From NCBI GenBank assembly GCA_022841375.1, contig JALHRQ010000009.1, positions 94,949 to 158,948 on the forward strand: DNA of 64,000 nt, in the 5' to 3' direction. Below the pieces are notes generated by a model. That model was not told the DNA's origin. It worked only from the letters and a program-made list of their open reading frames with translations, and did not search any database. Made by a program: the position numbers and the translations under genes. The DNA comes from Burkholderiales bacterium (GTDB taxonomy: Bacteria > Pseudomonadota > Gammaproteobacteria > Burkholderiales > SG8-41). Positions 14,312-29,515 of this stretch are shown here, piece after piece; position 1 is the stretch's first letter, and the number at the start of each line of letters is the position of its first letter.

Positions 14312-14725
14312 ATGGGCCTTGATCGAATCAACATCGGATTGACTGGTGAGGTCAGTTGGAATGTGGACCGTAAATGGTGCACTCAGCGAGGGGATTACCA
14401 TATCTTTTCAACTCCAAGCATGGTTCAACTTGCAGAAAAGGCTGCTATTGAAGCATTGCTCCCAGTCTTAGATGAAGGGCAAATTAGCGTTGGAACACGC
14501 GTGGATATACGCCATCTCGCGCCCACCCTTGAAGGGATGAAAGTAAGGGCGGTGGCAAATTTAATTGAGAAAGAGGACGCCCGCCTAAATTTTAAAGTGG
14601 AGATCTTCGACGATTTAGTAAAAGTTGGCGAAGCACATCATGAGAGATTTGTTTTGGATCTTGACCGTTATGTTCGCCGTCTTGAAAAGAAACGCGCTGA
14701 AGTGAAGGCGCTGGAGCAGAAGTAA
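14312..14725 (+). CDS. FlK-like thioesterase (fluoroacetyl-CoA thioesterase family)
   Basis: A 137-residue hotdog thioesterase. The residues aligning with the FlK catalytic triad are T34 (STPSM), E42 (LAEKAA) and H68 (IRHLAP). The spacings, 8 and 26 residues, equal those of FlK T42-E50-H76. The GTRVDIRHLAPTLEGMKV stretch is typical of the family. It starts two bases after the CoA-transferase stop and separates the two MaoC-MaoC-CoA-transferase copies. It probably hydrolyses an inhibitory or dead-end acyl-CoA; nothing shows that the substrate is fluorinated. Confidence 0.8.
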   Translation: MGLDRINIGLTGEVSWNVDRKWCTQRGDYHIFSTPSMVQLAEKAAIEALLPVLDEGQISVGTRVDIRHLAPTLEGMKVRAVANLIEKEDARLNFKVEIFDDLVKVGEAHHERFVLDLDRYVRRLEKKRAEVKALEQK

Positions 14726-19998: not shown

Positions 19999-20928
19999 TT
20001 AAGCACCAGTACTAACTGGGGGGCTTTGAAGACTCGACTTGCTCCATGACGGCGAGCACATCTGGATAAAGTCATATACGTATTTCTGTAAATGACGTTT
20101 GCGATTAATAAGCAGGCTGGTAATTGAAGGCGCGAAAAGATGTTTTGCGGGAATTGCACGAAGGCCCGCATCTTTATTGGAGTTGAACGTGACTTCAGAC
20201 AGCACAGCGATCCCGAGTGATTGCTCAACGCAAGTTTTAATCACATCCGCATCAATCGCACTCACCGAAAGCGTGGGATTCAATCCCTCCTTTTCAAAGG
20301 CGCGGATTAATTCCCTGCGACCGGTGAATTGCGGTTCATAGGTAATCAAGGGATATTGCGCGATGCTTTTAAGGGTAAGCCGGGTTTGCTGCAACAGCTT
20401 GTGTCTTCGGGGAACGATGACAACCCGGTCAAATTGACGCCAGGGCACAACGATGACACTCCCTTTGTCGGGCGGGGCATCGGTTGTCACACCAATGTCA
20501 GCCTCTCCCGAAGCCACCATATTGGTAATTTGTTCCGGATTTCCATGACGGAGAATCAACTTTACTTTTGGGTGGTAATTCGCAAACAACTTCATGACCT
20601 CGGGTAGTACATACCGGGCCTGGGTATGAGTTGTTGCTATTACCAGCGTTCCTATATTGGGTTGCCGCCGCTCCCTGGCCACAGATTCAATATTCTGGAT
20701 TTCTTCCAGGACGCGACGTGCATAAGCAACTATTCTTTCCCCGTCGGCTGTAACCCCGGAAAGTCTGTTTCCGGCCCTTACAAAAATGTCGAGACCCAGT
20801 TCAATTTCCAGTATCCGAACCTGCTTGCTGATGCCCGGCTGCGAGGTATGAAGGGCTGCAGCAACTTTCGAAATGTTGAGATCGTTTTGCGCGATCTCGA
20901 CGATGTAGCGGCATTGACGAAGATTCAC
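19999..20928 (-). CDS. LysR-family regulator, CysB/Cbl-like
   Basis: A 309-residue regulator with an N-terminal helix-turn-helix (NISKVAAALHTSQPGISKQVRILE, residues about 18-41) and an effector domain containing TTHTQARYVLP. Both features resemble the CysB/Cbl branch, which often responds to sulfur or small anionic ligands. It starts with GTG at 20928 and is divergent from the second operon, with two inverted repeats between them. It may couple this operon to sulfur or selenium status; that is speculation. Confidence 0.9.
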   Translation of the reverse strand: MNLRQCRYIVEIAQNDLNISKVAAALHTSQPGISKQVRILEIELGLDIFVRAGNRLSGVTADGERIVAYARRVLEEIQNIESVARERRQPNIGTLVIATTHTQARYVLPEVMKLFANYHPKVKLILRHGNPEQITNMVASGEADIGVTTDAPPDKGSVIVVPWRQFDRVVIVPRRHKLLQQTRLTLKSIAQYPLITYEPQFTGRRELIRAFEKEGLNPTLSVSAIDADVIKTCVEQSLGIAVLSEVTFNSNKDAGLRAIPAKHLFAPSITSLLINRKRHLQKYVYDFIQMCSPSWSKSSLQSPPVSTGA

Positions 20929-20966: not shown

Positions 20967-20999
20967 ATTCTTATTAAGAATAGTTGGTGAATGCTATTC
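20967..20999. promoter_or_regulatory. Overlapping inverted repeats, probable LysR operator of the second operon
   Basis: A perfect palindrome ATTCTTA-T-TAAGAAT (20967-20981) fits T-N11-A. It overlaps a second perfect repeat GAATAG-N10-CTATTC (20978-20999). Both sit between the divergent lysR start (20928) and the crotonase start (21026), as expected for LysR recall and activation sites. Confidence 0.65.
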
Positions 21000-21025
21000 T
21001 TTTTAAATATTTCAAGGAGGAATCT

Positions 21026-21820
21026 GTGGATTATTCAAGCTATAAGCATCTCGACATTCAACGCAACGGCCGGATTCTGACTTTAAAAATAAATCGGCCT
21101 CCGATGAATCCGATCCACTTTGATCTCCATAACGAATTTTCGCGGATTTTCTACGATGTGCAGGTCGATCACGAATCCGATGTGATTGTTTTGACCGGCG
21201 CAGGAAATGTGTTTTCCGCGGGCGGTGACATTCCGATGATGCAGAGGCGCATTGATGATCCGGAGCTCTTTAATCGCAAGAATCTGGAGATGAAAAAAAT
21301 GATCTTCGGCTTGCTGGATCTTGAGAAGCCGATCATTGCCCGCGTCAACGGTGACTGCATTGGACTTGGGGCGACCCTGGCTTTGCTGTGCGACATCATC
21401 ATTTCAGTCGATGACGCCCGCTTTGGTGATCCACACGTGAAAATGGGATATGTGGCCGGCGATGGCGGAGCGGTGATTTGGCCGCAACTCGTGGGCTTCG
21501 CACGGGCAAAAGAGTATTTGCTGACTGGCGACATGCTTTCCGCGGTGGAGGCTGAGCGTATCGGGCTCATCAACCATGCAGTGCCGCGCGACAAATTTGA
21601 TGAGAAGGTAAACGCACTTACCGCCAAACTGGCTGCCGGATCCACCAAGGCCATCAAGTGGACCAAGACTTGCACAAACATCCCGCTTCGACAACTGGCC
21701 CACTCGATCATGGATGCTTCTCTTGCCTATGAGGCCATCACCAATATGGGTGCTGACCACCAGGAGGCCGTGACGGCTTTCCAGGAAAAGCGGAAACCTA
21801 AATTTACGGGCGGTTATTGA
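21026..21820 (+). CDS. Enoyl-CoA hydratase/isomerase family (crotonase fold) with atypical active site
   Basis: A 264-residue crotonase-fold protein starting at GTG 21026 after a strong AAGGAGG. The oxyanion-hole segments are present (FSAGGDIPMM; NGDCIGLGATLALLCD). The two catalytic glutamates of classical hydratases are not: their places read GATLALLCD and FGDPHVKMG. An aspartate in GDGG, next to the second site, is typical of a divergent branch. It may be an isomerase, hydrolase or decarboxylase instead of a hydratase. First gene of the second LysR-controlled operon. Confidence 0.87.
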   Translation: MDYSSYKHLDIQRNGRILTLKINRPPMNPIHFDLHNEFSRIFYDVQVDHESDVIVLTGAGNVFSAGGDIPMMQRRIDDPELFNRKNLEMKKMIFGLLDLEKPIIARVNGDCIGLGATLALLCDIIISVDDARFGDPHVKMGYVAGDGGAVIWPQLVGFARAKEYLLTGDMLSAVEAERIGLINHAVPRDKFDEKVNALTAKLAAGSTKAIKWTKTCTNIPLRQLAHSIMDASLAYEAITNMGADHQEAVTAFQEKRKPKFTGGY

Positions 21821-21875: not shown

Positions 21876-23096
21876 ATGTCAAAAGCTCTCGAACACCTTC
21901 GCGTTCTCGATATGAGTCGCGTGCTTGCTGGCCCCTTTCTGGCGCAGAACCTCGCCGACTTTGGTGCTGACGTCATCAAGGTTGAGCGTCCTCATCACGG
22001 AGATGAGACGCGAACATTTCCTCCTTACCTCAAACGGGCCGACGGCACGCAAACGGAGGACTCGGCTTACTATATGTCGATTAATCGGGGAAAACGGTCG
22101 GTCACGATCGATATATCCAAACCCCTGGGGCAGGATTTGATCAAACAGCTGGCGGCCCAGTCGGATGTGCTGATCGAGAACTACAAGGTTGGAGATTTGA
22201 AACGCTATGGCCTTGATTACGAAAGCATCAAGGCCGTTAAACCCGACATCGTTTACTGCTCGATTACCGGCTTCGGGCAAACCGGCCCGTACCGCAACCG
22301 GCCGGGGTATGACTATATTTTCCAGGCCATGAGCGGGCTTATGAGCATTACCGGCGAGCGTGATGATTTGCCGGGTGGCGGCCCGGCCAAGGTCGGGCTC
22401 GCGATCTGTGATGTGATCACGGGAATATATTCAAGTTTCGCAGTGATGGCGGCCTTGGCGTATCGTGACAAGAGTGGCGAAGGTCAGCACATTGACATGT
22501 CTCTTCTTGATGTCGCCATCGCAACGATTTCCCACATCAACATGAACTATCTGGTTGGGGGCATCGTTCCAAAGCGTATGGGTACCGCGCATCCGAGCAT
22601 TGTTCCCTATCAGGTTTTTAATGCTGCTGACGGACAAATGGTTGTTGCGGTTGGAAACGATACCCAGTTTTCAAAGTTATGCCAGACCCTCGGATTGGTT
22701 GCGCTTCCTGCGGATGAGCGCTTCCGCACCAATGTGAGTCGCGTCAAGAATCGGGATGAACTGGTGCCGATTATTCAAGCGAAATTCCGGGAAAAACCTG
22801 TCGCTTACTGGATCGAAACGCTCACTGGAATTGGTGTTCCTTGCGGACCAATCAACAACATCAAGCAGGTCTTTGATGATCCGCACATAAAATACCGGGG
22901 CATGCGGGTTGAGGTTGACCATCCGCGAGGTGGAAAGGTTTCGATGCTTGCCAATCCAGCACGCTTGTCAGTGACCCCGGCTTCATACGATAGAGTCCCT
23001 CCGCAGCTTGGCGAGCACACGCATGAAGTGCTGCGTAGCGTATTGAATCTCGATGATCAGACGATCGAAGCGTTAACCTGCGCGGGAGTGATTTAG
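21876..23096 (+). CDS. Family III CoA-transferase (CaiB/BaiF type), third paralogue
   Basis: A 406-residue CoA-transferase more distant from copies A and B than those are from each other. Conserved parts include LAGPFLAQNLADFGADVIKVE, TGFGQTGPY and the expected nucleophilic aspartate D179 (GLAICDVITG). It lies between the crotonase and the selenoprotein gene and probably provides or recycles the CoA ester used by the crotonase. No clear Shine-Dalgarno precedes ATG 21876; the frame start matches the family N-terminus. Confidence 0.92.
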   Translation: MSKALEHLRVLDMSRVLAGPFLAQNLADFGADVIKVERPHHGDETRTFPPYLKRADGTQTEDSAYYMSINRGKRSVTIDISKPLGQDLIKQLAAQSDVLIENYKVGDLKRYGLDYESIKAVKPDIVYCSITGFGQTGPYRNRPGYDYIFQAMSGLMSITGERDDLPGGGPAKVGLAICDVITGIYSSFAVMAALAYRDKSGEGQHIDMSLLDVAIATISHINMNYLVGGIVPKRMGTAHPSIVPYQVFNAADGQMVVAVGNDTQFSKLCQTLGLVALPADERFRTNVSRVKNRDELVPIIQAKFREKPVAYWIETLTGIGVPCGPINNIKQVFDDPHIKYRGMRVEVDHPRGGKVSMLANPARLSVTPASYDRVPPQLGEHTHEVLRSVLNLDDQTIEALTCAGVI

Positions 23097-23263
23097 AGCG
23101 GTGAGGAGACTTGATTGAACACTTTTTACGGTTTCCATGCGGATATCGAAAAATATCCCCTTGTTTACTGAATAGCTTCCCTGGCTTTCCGAAGAGGATC
23201 CGGAGCCAGTGGTCGTGTTTTAAAAGAATATTTAGGTTGGCACTAACAGAAAAGGACATTCAA

Positions 23264-23806
23264 ATGAGCGATGAATTGTTACTGCTTGTTCCGGAGGCAC
23301 CTGCTGCAGAGCCGGAGGCCGTAAGTGCCGGACAGCGCAAGCCTGACGTAAATGCTTTGCGAATCGGCTTGCTGGATAACAGCAAGGCAAATGCCGATCA
23401 TCTGCTGCGGATGCTGTCCGAACATGTCGCTGATGAGATGAGAGTCAAGTCAGTCACTTCGCTCCGTAAGGGCAGTGTCGCCATCCCTGCAACGGCTCAA
23501 GTGCTTGACCAATTGGCGCACGAGTCGGATCTCGTCCTCAGCGCCATGGCCGATTGAGGGTCATGCACGTCGTGGAGTGTCCACGACATGTGTGAAATGC
23601 GTAAGCGCGGAGTTTCCGCAGCGGTTATTTGCTCGGAACCCTTCGTGAAGCTCGCAAAAACGCAGGCGAAAGTGTTTGGGGTGCCTGACCTCGCTTTAAT
23701 TGTCATACCGCATCCTCTGGGTGGATTGGACATTGAAGGGGTCAAGGCCCGCGTTGAAGTGGCTAATCCACAATTGCTGTCTTTGATCAGGCAGATTTCC
23801 AGATGA
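23264..23806 (+). CDS. UGSC-family selenoprotein (TGA at 23555-23557 read as selenocysteine)
   Basis: One reading frame of 180 residues, interrupted only by TGA at codon 98. With selenocysteine there, the sequence reads ADUGSCTSWSVHDM, the hallmark of the UGSC family, whose members carry U or C at this place. Homology-like sequence continues on both sides (LLDNSKANAD before; FGVPDLALIVIPHPLGG after). A hairpin typical of bacterial SECIS elements starts five bases after the TGA. ATG 23264 follows AAAAGGA. The stop overlaps the next start (ATGA). The family's reaction is not established to my knowledge; U98 and C101 could form a redox pair. Automatic annotation would split this into two short ORFs. 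Confidence 0.85.
23562..23594 (+). promoter_or_regulatory. Bacterial SECIS-like hairpin for selenocysteine insertion
   Basis: The upper stem is seven perfect pairs (GTCGTGG 23569-23575 with CCACGAC 23581-23587) closed by the loop AGTGT, which contains the GU expected for SelB binding. A single C/A mismatch separates it from six more pairs (23562-23567 with 23589-23594, two of them G-U). The loop starts 18 bases after the TGA, inside the known bacterial range of about 16-37. Confidence 0.8.
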
Positions 23807-24921
23807 ATTCACTTGAGGCTTGGATCGAGCAACCCGATACGACCGTTCGTTCCGGGAATGACATCAAGAAGGTCAACAGGTTGTTTCAGCAGCGCGGTTG
23901 GAGTGACGGTCTGCCCATTATTCCGCCAACCCCCGAACGGGTTCGGGAAATGCTGTCTTATTGCGATCGCCCCTGGGATCTTCCCGTCGGGAAAGTGGCG
24001 CCACGGTACGGTGAAGCCACGCCGATCCGGCTTGCAATCAATGCGGTGATGGCAGGATGTGAGCCCGAGTATTTTCCGGTGGTGATGGCTGCCGTCGATG
24101 CCATGTGCGATCCCGCCTTCAATCTCTATGCGCTACAGGCCACAACACATCCTTGCGCCCCTTTGCTGATTGTGAACGGTCCCATCGCGCGCGAATTGAA
24201 TATCAACGCCGGCATTAACGCATTTGGTCAGGGCAGGCAGGCAAATTCCACCATTGGACGTGCAATCCGGCTAACGCTAATGAATATCGGCGGGGGTTAT
24301 CCCGGAGCCGGAGATATGGCAACCCAGGGCGCCCCATCAAAGTTCAGCTATTGCGTTGCCGAGAACGAGGCCGAGAACCCGTGGACTTCCTTAAGCCTGG
24401 AACGCGGCTTTGACCAAAACACCAGCACGGTCACGGTTGTTGGTGCTGAACCCCCGCACAATGTTAATGATCACGCCAGCAGCACCGGCACAGGCATTCT
24501 GAAAATGGTTGCCGGAACAATGAGAACCACCGGCAACAATGACATTTATAACTATCAGGAAGGAACCTATCCGCAGCCACTGGTTATCTTTGGCCCGGAG
24601 CACGCGAAAACTGTTTATGCAGACGGATACGGCAAGGAAAAGATACGCGAATACCTGTTTGAGCACGCACGGGTGCCGATGGGGGAATTCTCACAGGAGA
24701 ACATAGACAGCAGATTTCGCCGCAAGTATGGCGATGCGCCTCTGGAATTGCTTATTCCGATCTTCAAGCGGCCGGAGGATTTATTGATCGCTGTCGTAGG
24801 TGGCCCCGGGAAACATTCGGTTGTCATCCCGACATTTGGGGCGACAAAAGCGATAACTCGAGCAATATCCCACGCGGACGGTCGCCCCGCACACTTGATC
24901 AGTGATTTGAAAGTTAATTAA
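23803..24921 (+). CDS. Conserved protein of unknown function coupled to the UGSC selenoprotein
   Basis: A 372-residue protein I cannot assign to a characterised family. It has no signal peptide or membrane helix, so it is probably cytoplasmic. Notable segments are RGWSDGLPIIPPTPERV (31-47), AVMAGCEPEYFPVV (81-94), TTHPCAPLLIVNGP (114-127) and NIGGGYPGAGDMATQGAPSK (161-180). Cysteines at 54, 86, 102, 118 and 184 could serve metal or thiol chemistry. Its ATG overlaps the selenoprotein stop, so the two are probably made together and may form one enzyme. A reductase role is speculation. Confidence 0.7.
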   Translation: MNSLEAWIEQPDTTVRSGNDIKKVNRLFQQRGWSDGLPIIPPTPERVREMLSYCDRPWDLPVGKVAPRYGEATPIRLAINAVMAGCEPEYFPVVMAAVDAMCDPAFNLYALQATTHPCAPLLIVNGPIARELNINAGINAFGQGRQANSTIGRAIRLTLMNIGGGYPGAGDMATQGAPSKFSYCVAENEAENPWTSLSLERGFDQNTSTVTVVGAEPPHNVNDHASSTGTGILKMVAGTMRTTGNNDIYNYQEGTYPQPLVIFGPEHAKTVYADGYGKEKIREYLFEHARVPMGEFSQENIDSRFRRKYGDAPLELLIPIFKRPEDLLIAVVGGPGKHSVVIPTFGATKAITRAISHADGRPAHLISDLKVN

Positions 24922-24951: not shown

Positions 24952-25929
24952 ATGAAACGGTTCAAAAAATCCCTGGTATTTGCATTTATTGGCTTAATTG
25001 CATTGCCTGTATTTGCACAGAACGCGGCCAAGGATTACCCAACAAAATCTGTGCGCTGGATAGTTACGTTCACACCCGGTGCATCCAACGATTTCGTGGC
25101 CCGATTAATGGCAGGCAAGCTGTCTGAACTGCTGGGGCAGCAATTCATTGTTGATAATCGGGGTGGTGCGGGCGGTCTGATCGGGGCCGAAACCGTTGCT
25201 ATCGCGCAACCCGATGGATATACGCTGCTGTTTACCAACCCGGCCCCGAACATCAATGCGCCTTTGATGGCAGCCAAGGCGCCCTACAGCCTTGATGATT
25301 TTTCTCCCATTATTTACTTCGGGTTCACACCACTAATTATTGCTGCACATCCCTCCTTTCCAGCCAAAAATCCCAAGGAATTAATCGCTTCGTTAAAAGC
25401 GAATCCGGGCAAATACACCTGGGGTTCATCCGGGAACGGAAGCAGCCTTCACATCGGTCTGGCCCTGTTTCAGGGTGCAACCGGCGTAAACGTGATTCAC
25501 GTCCCCTACAAGGGCACAGCCCCTGCGCTTTTGGATTTGGTTAGCGGCCAGATTCAGCTCATGCACACCACCAAGGTGTCTTCAGATGGCCAGGTTAAGT
25601 CCGGGCGCGTAAAAATTCTTGCGGTTGCAAGCGCAAAACGCAGTCAAGGGCTCCCGGATGTTCCGACTCTCTCTGAATATGGCATTAAGGACGCTGAAGC
25701 CGTAACTTGGTTTGGTATGGCCGCCCCTGCCAAAACGCCACGCGCTATTATCGACAAGCTCAATGCCGCTTCGAATAAGGTGCTTGCAATGCCTGATATA
25801 AAGAAGCGCCTTGAAGAAAATGACGTCGATATTCAAGGTGGAACACCCGAGGAATTCGGCCGTTTTATGAAAAAAGAAGCCGAGCGGCTTAATCAGCTCA
25901 TTAAAGCGGGTGTCATCAAAAAGGGCTAA
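24952..25929 (+). CDS. Tripartite tricarboxylate transporter substrate-binding protein (Bug/TctC family), copy 3
   Basis: A 325-residue periplasmic receptor with a signal peptide ending at VFAQ (residue 23), then YPTKSVRWIVTFTPGASND, GGAGGLIGAE, PDGYT and HVPYKGTAPA. A strong AAGGAGGAG precedes ATG 24952. No membrane subunits are adjacent; it may share TctA/TctB from the first operon or act as a sensor, as proposed for some orphan Bug proteins. Confidence 0.92.
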   Translation: MKRFKKSLVFAFIGLIALPVFAQNAAKDYPTKSVRWIVTFTPGASNDFVARLMAGKLSELLGQQFIVDNRGGAGGLIGAETVAIAQPDGYTLLFTNPAPNINAPLMAAKAPYSLDDFSPIIYFGFTPLIIAAHPSFPAKNPKELIASLKANPGKYTWGSSGNGSSLHIGLALFQGATGVNVIHVPYKGTAPALLDLVSGQIQLMHTTKVSSDGQVKSGRVKILAVASAKRSQGLPDVPTLSEYGIKDAEAVTWFGMAAPAKTPRAIIDKLNAASNKVLAMPDIKKRLEENDVDIQGGTPEEFGRFMKKEAERLNQLIKAGVIKKG

Positions 25930-25988: not shown

Positions 25989-27362
25989 ATGAAATTCCAA
26001 AATGCCCGGGATGGACTGGCTTATTTTGTAAGCAGGACGACCTATAAAAAAGTCAGCCCGGAAGCCATACATGCCTCAAAGCGCTTTTTGCTGGATTCTC
26101 TGGCATGCATTGCGGGTGGATGGAACGAACCTTCCGCGAGGATCGCTCGAGAGGTTTCGGAGGATCTGGGCGGATCAAAAGATGCCCATGTGTTGCTGAC
26201 CACCAGGAAAACCTCCGTCGTAAATGCAACTCTCGCCAATGGCATTGCTTTGCGGGCATTGGACTTGATCGATATGTACCATTCTCTTGATCACGCCCAT
26301 CCCTGCGAAATGACCATCCCGCCGGCCCTGGCCGTCGGACAAAAAATGCATTCCAGCGGCAAAGACGTATTGACCGCCATCGTGCTTGGTTATGAGATCT
26401 GCATGAAATTTGCGGAAATCACCGGGAATACCAGGAAAGGGTGGGCTGGCACAGCAACATTAGGGCAATTCGCCACACCCCTTGTGGCTGGATATCTATT
26501 GCGGCTCAAGCAATCCCAGTTGGCCGAAGCGGTGTCAATTTCCGGCTCTCACAACGTTTCCCTTGCCATTGCTTACAACCTTCCCATAAGCATGACAAAG
26601 GATGCCTTGAATACCTTTGCGGCTCAAAGTGGCGTCATGGCCGCATTGTTGGCCAAAAGAGGATTTACCGGGCCTGCAGGAATTCTGGAGGCGCCCGGTG
26701 GCCTGTGGCCACAACTGGAATCGAATGCTACGGTCGAGACCCTGCTTGAGGGTCTTGGTAAACCGTTTCGAATCACCAAGTGCGGCCTAAAAGATCACAA
26801 GTTTGCTGCCATTGCCTGGTCACACCCAGCCATTGAGGCTTTACTTAAACTTCGCGCGGAGCATGGCTTAACGCCCAAGAACGTGAAGGAGATCAAGGTA
26901 CGAGCAACGCGTAAGGTGGCCACCCGCATTGGAGATAAGGCTGGGGCAAAGCTTAGCCCTCTGGATACTCAATTCAGTGGGCAGAATATTCTTGCAACAG
27001 CGTTGAAATACGGCGACCTTTTGCCGAAACGGCAGAAAATGTCCGCTGATGCCGATGTAAGGGCAATTTCGAAGATCGTCAGGATAGAGCACGACCCCGG
27101 TCTTGATCATCTTTATCCCGAGAAAATGCCTTCCATTGTCGAGGTGCTTACGGTGGATGGCAAACGACTCTCATGTCGCGTTGATTATCGCCGTGGCGAT
27201 CCCAACAACCCGTTGTCAGATAAAGATATTGAAGAGAAGTTTATGGCATTGACCGCCAAGCATTTGTCGAAAAGCACAGCCAAGAAAATATGCGGTTTGG
27301 TATGGGGGCTGGAGAACATGCGCGACATTAATGAGTTAACTACAAAATTTTCTAAGAATTAA
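25989..27362 (+). CDS. MmgE/PrpD family protein
   Basis: A 457-residue member of the family that includes 2-methylcitrate dehydratase and cis-aconitate decarboxylase. Visible hallmarks are RFLLDSLACIAGG near 30-43, the conserved DMYHSLDHAHPCEMTIPPALAVG block near 96-117, and KCGLKDHKFAA further on. Such enzymes act on branched di- or tricarboxylic acids without CoA. It lies between two TctC receptors, which fits catabolism of a tricarboxylate-like compound; the substrate is not known. Confidence 0.88.
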   Translation: MKFQNARDGLAYFVSRTTYKKVSPEAIHASKRFLLDSLACIAGGWNEPSARIAREVSEDLGGSKDAHVLLTTRKTSVVNATLANGIALRALDLIDMYHSLDHAHPCEMTIPPALAVGQKMHSSGKDVLTAIVLGYEICMKFAEITGNTRKGWAGTATLGQFATPLVAGYLLRLKQSQLAEAVSISGSHNVSLAIAYNLPISMTKDALNTFAAQSGVMAALLAKRGFTGPAGILEAPGGLWPQLESNATVETLLEGLGKPFRITKCGLKDHKFAAIAWSHPAIEALLKLRAEHGLTPKNVKEIKVRATRKVATRIGDKAGAKLSPLDTQFSGQNILATALKYGDLLPKRQKMSADADVRAISKIVRIEHDPGLDHLYPEKMPSIVEVLTVDGKRLSCRVDYRRGDPNNPLSDKDIEEKFMALTAKHLSKSTAKKICGLVWGLENMRDINELTTKFSKN

Positions 27363-27397
27363 ATCTTGCAAGTCAATCTTTCTCCGTGGAGGGAAGT

Positions 27398-28354
27398 GTG
27401 AAATTTCTTTTATTCGTAATTTCGTTTTTTGCATCGTACTCAGCGCTTGCGCAAAATTATCCAACACGCCCCGTCACTTTGGTCGTGCCGGCGCCAGCTG
27501 GTGGGCCAACGGATATTATTGGGCGACAGGCAGCCCATGTATTGACCGGCCAAATTTCTTACAACGTGATTGTTGAGAATCGCGGAGGTGCCGGTAACAC
27601 ACTGGGCACAGACTTTGTGGCTCGTGCCAAACCCGATGGATATACGCTGGTTGTAGGCAGTCCCAGTTCACATGCGATCGCCCCCAGCATTTATCCAAAG
27701 TTGCCCTATGATCCGGTCAAGGATTTCACGCCAATTATCATGTTAGTCACGGCGCCATTGGCACTGGTCACGCATCCATCAGTGCCGGCGAAAAACCTTA
27801 AGGAATTTATCGCTTTAGCCAAATCCAAACCCGGGCAATTGAATTTTGGTTCCGGTGGCAGTGGAACTACGTCCCATTTGACAGGTGAATACTTCAATCT
27901 GGCGGCTGGAACAAAGATAGTGCACGTTCCGTACAAGGGCAGTGGCCCCGCGACGACAGATCTGATGACGGGGCAGATTCAGATGATGTTTATTGGCGTT
28001 CATTCCTCTATCCCCTTGATGCAAGCTAAAAAGCTACGGGGATTGGGGGTAACCAGCACCAATCGCTCACCCCTGATTAAAGATCTGCCCACCATGGACG
28101 AAGCGGGCCTTAAAGGTTTTGTTGTCAACACCTGGTACGGAATCCTGGGGCCTGCCGGTCTCCCAAAAAATATTGTTACGACATTAAACGACGCCTTCAC
28201 AAAAGGCATGCGTGATCCGGCGATGCGCCAGCGATTTGCGGATCAGGGTTTTGATATTACGACTGGGACCCCGGAACAATTCGGTAAAGACCTGGCTCGC
28301 GAAGTCGAAACCTGGGGTAAGGTTGTTAAACAGGCTGGCGCAAAAGCGGACTAA
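27398..28354 (+). CDS. Tripartite tricarboxylate transporter substrate-binding protein (Bug/TctC family), copy 4
   Basis: A 318-residue receptor with signal peptide (KFLLFVISFFASYSALAQ) and the Bug motifs YPTRPVTLVVPAPAGGPTD, GGAGNTLGTD, PDGYT and HVPYKGSGPA. GTG 27398 is chosen because GGAGGG lies four bases before it; an in-frame GTG at 27386 would overlap that site. A second orphan receptor in this operon, different in sequence from the one at 24952. Confidence 0.92.
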   Translation: MKFLLFVISFFASYSALAQNYPTRPVTLVVPAPAGGPTDIIGRQAAHVLTGQISYNVIVENRGGAGNTLGTDFVARAKPDGYTLVVGSPSSHAIAPSIYPKLPYDPVKDFTPIIMLVTAPLALVTHPSVPAKNLKEFIALAKSKPGQLNFGSGGSGTTSHLTGEYFNLAAGTKIVHVPYKGSGPATTDLMTGQIQMMFIGVHSSIPLMQAKKLRGLGVTSTNRSPLIKDLPTMDEAGLKGFVVNTWYGILGPAGLPKNIVTTLNDAFTKGMRDPAMRQRFADQGFDITTGTPEQFGKDLAREVETWGKVVKQAGAKAD

Positions 28355-28384: not shown

Positions 28385-29515
28385 ATGAAAATTACTGAAG
28401 TCAAAGGCATCGCTCTTTCTTTCAAGCTGGAAAATGCTCCGCGTCGGGGCAGTGGACAACCGGTGAAGAAAGATATGGTTATTGTTCGGGTAAAGACGGA
28501 GGACGGAATAGTCGGATATGGGGAGGCGCATCATGCGCTTGCACCCACAGTTGTCGCGGACATCGTTAATTACAACCTGGCGCCGATAGTGGTCGGCCAG
28601 GACGCAATGGCGGTTGAGGAGATTTGGCAGAAGATTTACGTAAAGCAGGGCCAAACCCATGGACCCGGGTGGTCATTTTTCAAGGCCCTCTCCGGCGTTG
28701 ATATCGCGCTTTGGGATGCGCGCGGCAAGGCTTTGAACCAGCCTGTATACAGCCTGCTCGGCGGGGTTCGTAAAAAAATCCGCGCCTATGCCGGCGGTGT
28801 CTGCCTTGGGTATCAACCGCCACCCCAACTTTTGGAAGAAGCCCAGAAGTTTGTTGCTGCGGGCTGGACCGCTTTAAAGCTGCGGTTGGGGGATTCTGTC
28901 GAGCGGGATATCGAGAGAGTTAAATATATTCGCAAACATCTACCGGCCGCGATCGACATCATGGTTGATGTGAACACCCGCTACACGTATCTGGATGCGC
29001 AGCGCGTAATACCTACGCTGGAAGAGTGCGGAATTTTTTGGCTGGAGGAGCCATTTACACCGGATAATCTTGCCGATTATGCGCGCATCAATGCCTCGAC
29101 CCGGATTCCATTAGCCGGCGGTGAGAATCACTTTACCCGCTACCAGGCTCGGGAGTTACTGGAACGATCTGCAGTAGATATTGTGCAACCGGACCCCTGC
29201 AAATCCGGGGGCATCACGGAGTGCAAGAGAATCGCGGACCTTGCTTCGGCCTTCCGTCGCTCGTTTGCTCCGCATACCGGAATGAGTGGGATTGATGGCG
29301 CGGCTTGTTTGCACCTGCTTTGCTCCACATCCAACGCACTCGTCTATGAGAGCGACTGCGCCGCCTTAAATCCATTCCGGGACGAATTAGTACATGGAGG
29401 CCCGACTCTGGTGGATGGCTTTGTCGAACCCAACGAAAAACCGGGGTTGGGTGTAGAAGTTGACGAGTCACTGTTTTCTAAACTGCCGGGTGTTCCAGGT
29501 CCTTGCTACATTTGA
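28385..29515 (+). CDS. Mandelate racemase/muconate lactonizing enzyme-like member of the enolase superfamily
   Basis: A 376-residue enzyme with an N-terminal capping domain and a C-terminal barrel. Metal ligands are expected at D195 (MVDVN), E221 (WLEEPF) and E247 (GGENH). The second-half base is H297 (APHTGMSG) with D270 as partner. The K165-x-R167 pair (ALKLRLG) lies where mandelate racemase has K-x-K. The pattern suggests abstraction of a proton alpha to a carboxylate, for example in a hydroxy-acid dehydratase or racemase. Last gene of the second operon. Confidence 0.88.
   Translation: MKITEVKGIALSFKLENAPRRGSGQPVKKDMVIVRVKTEDGIVGYGEAHHALAPTVVADIVNYNLAPIVVGQDAMAVEEIWQKIYVKQGQTHGPGWSFFKALSGVDIALWDARGKALNQPVYSLLGGVRKKIRAYAGGVCLGYQPPPQLLEEAQKFVAAGWTALKLRLGDSVERDIERVKYIRKHLPAAIDIMVDVNTRYTYLDAQRVIPTLEECGIFWLEEPFTPDNLADYARINASTRIPLAGGENHFTRYQARELLERSAVDIVQPDPCKSGGITECKRIADLASAFRRSFAPHTGMSGIDGAACLHLLCSTSNALVYESDCAALNPFRDELVHGGPTLVDGFVEPNEKPGLGVEVDESLFSKLPGVPGPCYI

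Follow-up and report, generated by a model that had tools for sequence, protein, structure and literature searches.

Does an in-frame TGA in a presumed catabolic operon of a Burkholderiales bacterium mark a selenocysteine (Sec) codon, and, if so, what might the encoded protein do? Within the 64,000-nucleotide stretch of DNA that we analyzed (the window, to which all coordinates without a contig or locus prefix refer), a forward-strand reading frame (23264..23806; 180 codons plus stop) starts with an ATG at 23264, meets a TGA at 23555–23557, continues in frame for 82 more residues, and ends at a TGA (23804–23806) overlapping the ATG at 23803 of the following gene. When the internal TGA is read through as residue 98, the residues around it are ADUGSCTSW, and the protein matches PF24696 (E value of 6.6e-45; 153.8 bits against a cut-off of 25) across residues 8 to 175, i.e., on both sides of the TGA, as well as NF041046, the model for the UGSC family of (seleno)proteins (138.5 bits against a cut-off of 125). 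An earlier note on this DNA, made from the sequence alone, had proposed that the TGA divides a single UGSC frame with 82 family-like residues behind it and that a gene finder would return pieces of 97 and 72 residues. The translation and the family matches on either side bear out the former, and the standard open reading frame (ORF) list bears out the latter, containing only fragments at 23111–23557 (from a TTG start; 97 codons when the ATG at 23264 is taken as the beginning) and 23588–23806 (72 amino acids [aa]). The description of the gene as unannotated is only partly fair, because NCBI already has a UGSC (seleno)protein model. Fragments alone in a standard ORF search would also be expected if the TGA were a nonsense mutation or a sequencing error and the gene were dead, and this reading has to be weighed against the conservation of the codon, the RNA around it, and the gene content of the host.

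With regard to the codon, the host genome contains 11 UGSC matches; all of them exceed the cut-off, and a single in-frame TGA occurs in every one. Eight of these copies are 24 to 56% identical to the window protein (in an alignment that omits the two fused copies), and for 10 of the 11, the nearest row in a tree of 161 rows belongs to another genome (own copies appear twice in the tree, and duplicates were skipped when taking nearest rows), making them old paralogues. The GTDB species genomes contain 341 stretches coding for a relative, and TGA occupies the Sec codon in 80 of the best 80 of these 341 (68 parsed by script and 12, with a UGAC or UGGC motif, read by eye). The TGC or TGT codons that the earlier note had suggested looking for in relatives are thus not seen in this set; Cys forms were not selected against, because one of the two search patterns had Cys at the codon. 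Relatives with Cys do exist, namely, P0003 and P0007 (Cys in the database translations) and the fusion clade of P0132. Fourteen of the 80 records, all metagenome-assembled genomes (MAGs; L095, L111, L112, L118, and ten others), are titled “Bordetella parapertussis,” which looks like a wrong automatic name, similar loci being titled only Betaproteobacteria or Burkholderiales.

Across 399 genomes of the order (with at most eight candidates scored per genome), a UGSC match was present in 44 and exceeded the cut-off in 41, and every UGSC row among the matches listed contains one TGA; judging from the E values and the tally, the three genomes below the cut-off appear to be G053, G177, and G235. Eight genomes, picked for their many UGSC candidates and scored fully, yielded 58, 18, 18, 26, 24, 17, 19, and 9 matches (189 in all); among the matches listed for these genomes, one lacks a stop (a Cys form), one has a TGA plus a TAG, and the rest have one TGA. 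The genome with 58 matches is a related MAG (G293; completeness of 98 and contamination of 2), in which all 45 of the 45 matches listed have TGA (counted by eye). The residue at position +3 relative to Sec is Cys in 120 of 121 TGA copies. A gene cluster in another genome, G140, encodes a UGSC-family copy with UGSS, which has no second Cys and keeps its TGA (L174:10566), and a Cys fusion with CGTS (L174:6802).

The host genome (4.08 Mb in 66 contigs; 99% complete) carries the machinery for Sec insertion. The earlier note had named selA, selB, selC, and selD as a check, and all four are present: a tRNA-Sec scoring 75.9 bits (Rfam gathering threshold of 47), selA on the same contig at a distance of 3.8 kb, selB between these two, and selD (L019, C15:11228–12157), a 419-bit match containing one in-frame TGA. 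This selD is itself a predicted selenoprotein gene. In a survey of 80 genomes of the order under stricter filters, tRNA-Sec was detected in 37 of the 41 genomes with an over-cut-off UGSC match versus 10 of 36 other genomes and is, therefore, commoner with UGSC yet not exclusive to it. The UGSC genomes without a tRNA-Sec match (G052, G059, G329, and G357) are drafts that are 83 to 97% complete; of the three genomes apparently below the UGSC cut-off, tRNA-Sec is present in G235 and was not found in G053 or G177. A comparison of coordinates places tRNA-Sec no more than 5 kb from a UGSC gene in five related genomes (G131:C47, where the gap is 71 bases, G267:C22, G211:C88, G240:C56, and G103:C54), and the two genes perhaps travel together in related genomes.

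A SECIS-type hairpin had been claimed to begin five bases downstream of the TGA. A predicted bacterial SECIS hairpin does fold on the forward strand at 23561..23595 (core stem of 23569–23576 with 23580–23587; loop of 23577–23579), its first pair falling at the fourth base after the TGA, near the claimed five. Its folding energy is −20.4 kcal/mol (z of −2.84), with none of 200 dinucleotide shuffles as stable, and when shuffling preserves the codons, z is −2.65 and 2 of 200 are as stable. Codon-preserving shuffles of 121 single-TGA sequences give a median z of −2.0 (for 78 of the 121, 10 or fewer of 200 shuffles are as stable), compared with +0.38 for a segment lying farther downstream in these genes; the sequences are not independent of one another, because most are close relatives of the window gene. 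Synonymous codons are locked within the stem and loop (AGT in 109 of 109, TCG in 104 of 109, GTC in 98 of 101, and ACG in 105 of 114), and the top shares listed for degenerate codons on either side (offsets −25 to −1 and +14 to +39) are mostly 0.34 to 0.77, three being higher (Asp at −1, 0.85; Arg at +17, 0.86; Gln at +36, 0.93). Pairing is seen in 93% of core-stem cells across 98 distinct sequences, versus 16 to 46% when the partner column is slid. Double changes occur in six of the eight core-stem pairs of these 98 sequences, but the pairing fraction is the stronger argument because the slid versions also show three to six. Rfam has no match for the window hairpin. Among the other copies of the host genome, L043 has no stable hairpin (z of +1.99), and six further copies have z values of −0.8 to −1.5 with codon-preserving shuffles. 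By these sequence comparisons, the hairpin directly 3′ of the TGA is under selection, and it is weak or absent in some paralogues of the same genome, not in the window copy.

A nonsense mutation or sequencing error is effectively excluded by the TGA common to all 11 own copies and to the best 80 of 341 named relatives, by the locked codon choice after it, and by the Sec machinery of the genome; we regard a dead gene as extremely improbable. Together with the family matches, the same evidence, including the constraint at the RNA level, supports the earlier identification of a UGSC-family selenoprotein gene, and 23264..23806 is almost certainly such a gene, with Sec predicted at residue 98.

As a protein, the product is an ordinary member of an established family, resembling the described UGSC selenoproteins (PF24696, NF041046, PMC2398784) in profile, Sec motif, and length. 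With 255 genes, UGSC was one of the five most frequent selenoprotein families of the Global Ocean Sampling data (PMC2398784), and a 2026 review lists it with selenoproteins whose functions “remain largely uncharacterized” (PMC13188914). In the sections drawn on here, PMC13188914, PMC2398784, PMC9312934, and PMC5029168 give neither a function nor a partner for UGSC. The 2008 study (PMC2398784) did note UGSC fused to a conserved domain, “Unknown_1,” that may be the partner described below. The companion subunit and the radiation of copies were not found in the literature searched: the UGSC accounts, in the sections drawn on, are without a many-copy radiation, whereas there are 11 copies in the host genome and 58 in its relative. 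The largest bacterial selenoprotein gene sets number 57 and, recently, 63 (PMC13188914), such that the 58 matches in one genome put a single family near the bacterial maximum; the selenoprotein-rich groups named in the consulted part of that review do not include betaproteobacteria.

The gene overlapping the UGSC stop (23803..24921, forward strand; 372 aa) belongs to an unnamed family, and its co-occurrence with UGSC makes it a predicted second subunit, which we refer to as the partner. It matches nothing in Pfam or NCBIfam, and where the matches listed for its relatives (120 rows; 7,078 relatives scored) give a product name, that name is “hypothetical protein.” For 118 of 122 UGSC domains (11 from the host, 80 named, 28 from G293, and 3 from G140), a partner lies within 1 kb on the same strand or is fused, 111 of them downstream and 7 upstream; the four domains without a nearby partner are L103, L153, L165, and L171. 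Coordinate comparison shows that 11 of the 13 partner copies in the host genome adjoin, or are fused to, the 11 UGSC genes, with natural fusions at L038:7465–9165 and L043:8010–9737 and others elsewhere. Two extra copies (C3:156260–157231 and C21:45575–46561) are not paired with UGSC. Of the 399 genomes of the order, 42 encode the partner, and these are the 41 with over-cut-off UGSC matches plus G235, whose UGSC match is weak (E value of 6.9e-4). UGSC and its partner very probably act together. In an alignment of 142 partner sequences (locus hits longer than 270 residues and a quarter of the long fusion hits), D35, R153, N161, E187, and W194 are invariant, and Cys86 is kept in 98.6%. The partner matches none of the known folds clearly; its weak matches, with TM scores of about 0.2 and none reaching an E value of 1e-3, are to fumarate hydratase and cyanuric acid hydrolase.

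The earlier note had also viewed the surrounding operon as a metabolic context for UGSC. On the forward strand, the UGSC gene is preceded by genes for an enoyl-CoA hydratase/isomerase family protein (crotonase; 20984..21820; PF00378, 2.4e-50) and a family III CoA-transferase (21876..23096; PF02515, 2.8e-130), from which a gene for a LysR-type regulator diverges on the reverse strand (19999..20928; PF03466 and PF00126). The partner is followed by a TctC-type periplasmic receptor (24952..25929; PF03401, 2.3e-73) and then, as context, by an MmgE/PrpD family protein (25989..27362; PF03972 and PF19305), a second TctC receptor (27386–28354; PF03401), and an enolase-superfamily protein (28385–29515; PF13378 and PF02746), all on the forward strand. 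In four orthologous loci, some cut by contig ends and with UGSC proteins that are 65 to 79% identical, the order UGSC–partner–TctC is always kept, the CoA-transferase lies upstream in three (L094 has an amidohydrolase in its place), the crotonase is present in two, and the LysR-type regulator is found in L100; neither the MmgE/PrpD nor the enolase-superfamily gene has a match in the four. The TctC receptors are, moreover, a weaker clue than claimed because they abound in the host genome (at least 150, all of those scored among 216 candidates). Other UGSC modules neighbor genes for an FMN-dependent dehydrogenase, a ketopantoate reductase-like protein, a 2-hydroxyacid dehydrogenase, a thiolase, a TPP-enzyme, and MmgE/PrpD, a variety that is consistent with varied organic-acid substrates. 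Directly adjoining one module is a beta-propeller (LVIVD) protein (L036:5821–7131) with a weak match to the selenium-binding protein SBP56 (35.1 bits against a cut-off of 34). Elsewhere in the window, a neighboring CoA-transferase/MaoC cluster includes an FlK-type protein of the fluoroacetyl-CoA thioesterase family (14312–14725; PF22636, 2.7e-30); its presence near a GrdB-like enzyme is suggestive, although this may be a broad family.

The closest known arrangement is that of glycine reductase (GrdE/GrdB) and D-proline reductase (PrdA/PrdB), in which a small Sec subunit likewise stands beside a larger partner. The earlier note had raised neither this possible link nor the companion role of the following gene or the radiation of paralogues. 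GrdB/PrdB and UGSC share a UG[ST]C-type motif located 82 to 90 residues from the C terminus: the distance is 82 for the window protein and, as computed from PMC3091704 for C. sticklandii, 86 for GrdB, 88 for GrdH, and 90 for PrdB. GrdB motifs have been given as STUG (PMC10838667) and UxxCxxC (PMC13188914), and three of the 11 own copies (L036, L037, and L040) read UGSC[TS]xC, with Trp instead of Cys at the final position in the window copy. When a UGSC profile (161 rows) is aligned with nine GRDB-like proteins of the same order, the alignment spans 74 columns, Sec column on Sec column, and scores 29.8, the highest of 100 column shuffles reaching 21.2; this is a weak match (E value of 8.7e-4 for one comparison; hhalign probability of 23%). 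We do not file UGSC as a GRDB member, because none of nine UGSC proteins matches Pfam GRDB (PF07355) at an E value of ≤10 and no Grd or Prd family is among the Pfam matches of 38 partner proteins at the same threshold. The GRDB profile finds nothing in the host genome; in a set of 200 genomes from the order, 15 have a match. Some related genomes (L076, L077, L079, L080, L081, L083, L087, L091, and L092) encode a GRDB-like predicted selenoprotein with UPxCTC that is cut short in ordinary ORFs.

The systems differ in that GrdE and PrdA are pyruvoyl proproteins, whereas none was recognized among the UGSC partners, which fall into no Pfam family. Cloacibacillus FarB/FarE, assigned to fluoroacetate reduction, also pairs a GrdB-like selenoprotein with a protein other than a pyruvoyl proprotein (PMC10838667). 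FarB/FarE resembles the UGSC system in having a transporter in the same operon and in the several substrate-specific GrdB copies of one genome; it differs in consisting of clear Grd homologues, in belonging to an anaerobe, and in having a radical-SAM protein and an antiporter rather than TctC and a CoA-transferase.

By analogy with GrdB/PrdB, we propose as the likeliest function, at a probability of about 0.5, that UGSC and its partner form a two-subunit catabolic enzyme in which Sec would serve as the nucleophile on a carboxylate-type substrate, similar odds applying to a reductive, GrdB-like cleavage by this route. The TctC receptor would deliver an organic acid whose CoA thioester the CoA-transferase and crotonase would handle, and the UGSC/partner pair would perform a reductive bond cleavage. 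In the chemistry proposed for PrdB (PMC3091704), Sec attacks the alpha-carbon of a partner-held substrate to give a selenoether that Cys resolves. Correspondingly, with the substrate bound to the partner, Sec98 would expel a leaving group, forming a selenoether; Cys101 would resolve it, leaving a selenide-sulphide from which the pair would be restored by a thioredoxin-type donor. The paralogues would represent substrate-specific versions. The link to GrdB/PrdB is weak because of the low hhalign probability, the lack of a Pfam GRDB match, and the generic (Rossmann-like) fold matches of UGSC, and the Cys101 step does not explain the UGSS copy or the Cys copy without a second Cys.

The UxxC motif itself, with Cys at +3 in all but one of the TGA copies, would also suit a selenol/thiol oxidoreductase, in which Sec98 and Cys101 cycle between selenide-sulphide and selenol-thiol forms, protecting or regenerating a partner that is the actual catabolic enzyme. 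The near-invariant Cys86 of the partner and the thioredoxin-like fold suggested for UGSC in PMC2398784 point the same way, but a Cys fusion modeled with AlphaFold2 shows strands alternating with helices and appears Rossmann-like rather than thioredoxin-like, the two copies without the second Cys depart from the pattern, and a general redox helper would need no dedicated copy in each operon; we consider this role somewhat unlikely. No electron donor was found in the window operon, and no donor gene is conserved beside the UGSC modules examined. This would suit a non-reductive enzyme (a lyase, hydrolase, or isomerase) whose substrate is an acid or a CoA thioester, with Sec as a covalent nucleophile or base and with no electrons consumed, as would the CoA-transferase and crotonase of the operon and the partner's resemblance to fumarate hydratase and cyanuric acid hydrolase. 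That resemblance is, however, at the low scores given above, and the Cys at +3 is what a redox pair would have, such that a non-reductive enzyme is, in our estimate, unlikely.

The reductive, GrdB-like reading can be extended to the family as a whole. More tentatively than for the window pair alone, we suggest that UGSC and its partner may constitute a large, unrecognized class of selenoenzymes, built from two subunits, for the reductive cleavage of bonds adjacent to carboxylates, with GrdB/PrdB chemistry rebuilt in betaproteobacteria in dozens of substrate-specific copies and up to 58 per genome. Because standard gene finding splits UGSC genes and leaves the partner as a “hypothetical protein,” what appears to be a whole catabolic system has been hidden. 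The UGSC reaction becomes directly testable now that a companion, natural fusions, and an operon that is conserved have been identified. If the broader suggestion is true, selenium would be a bulk catalyst for the degradation of environmental organic acids in these bacteria.
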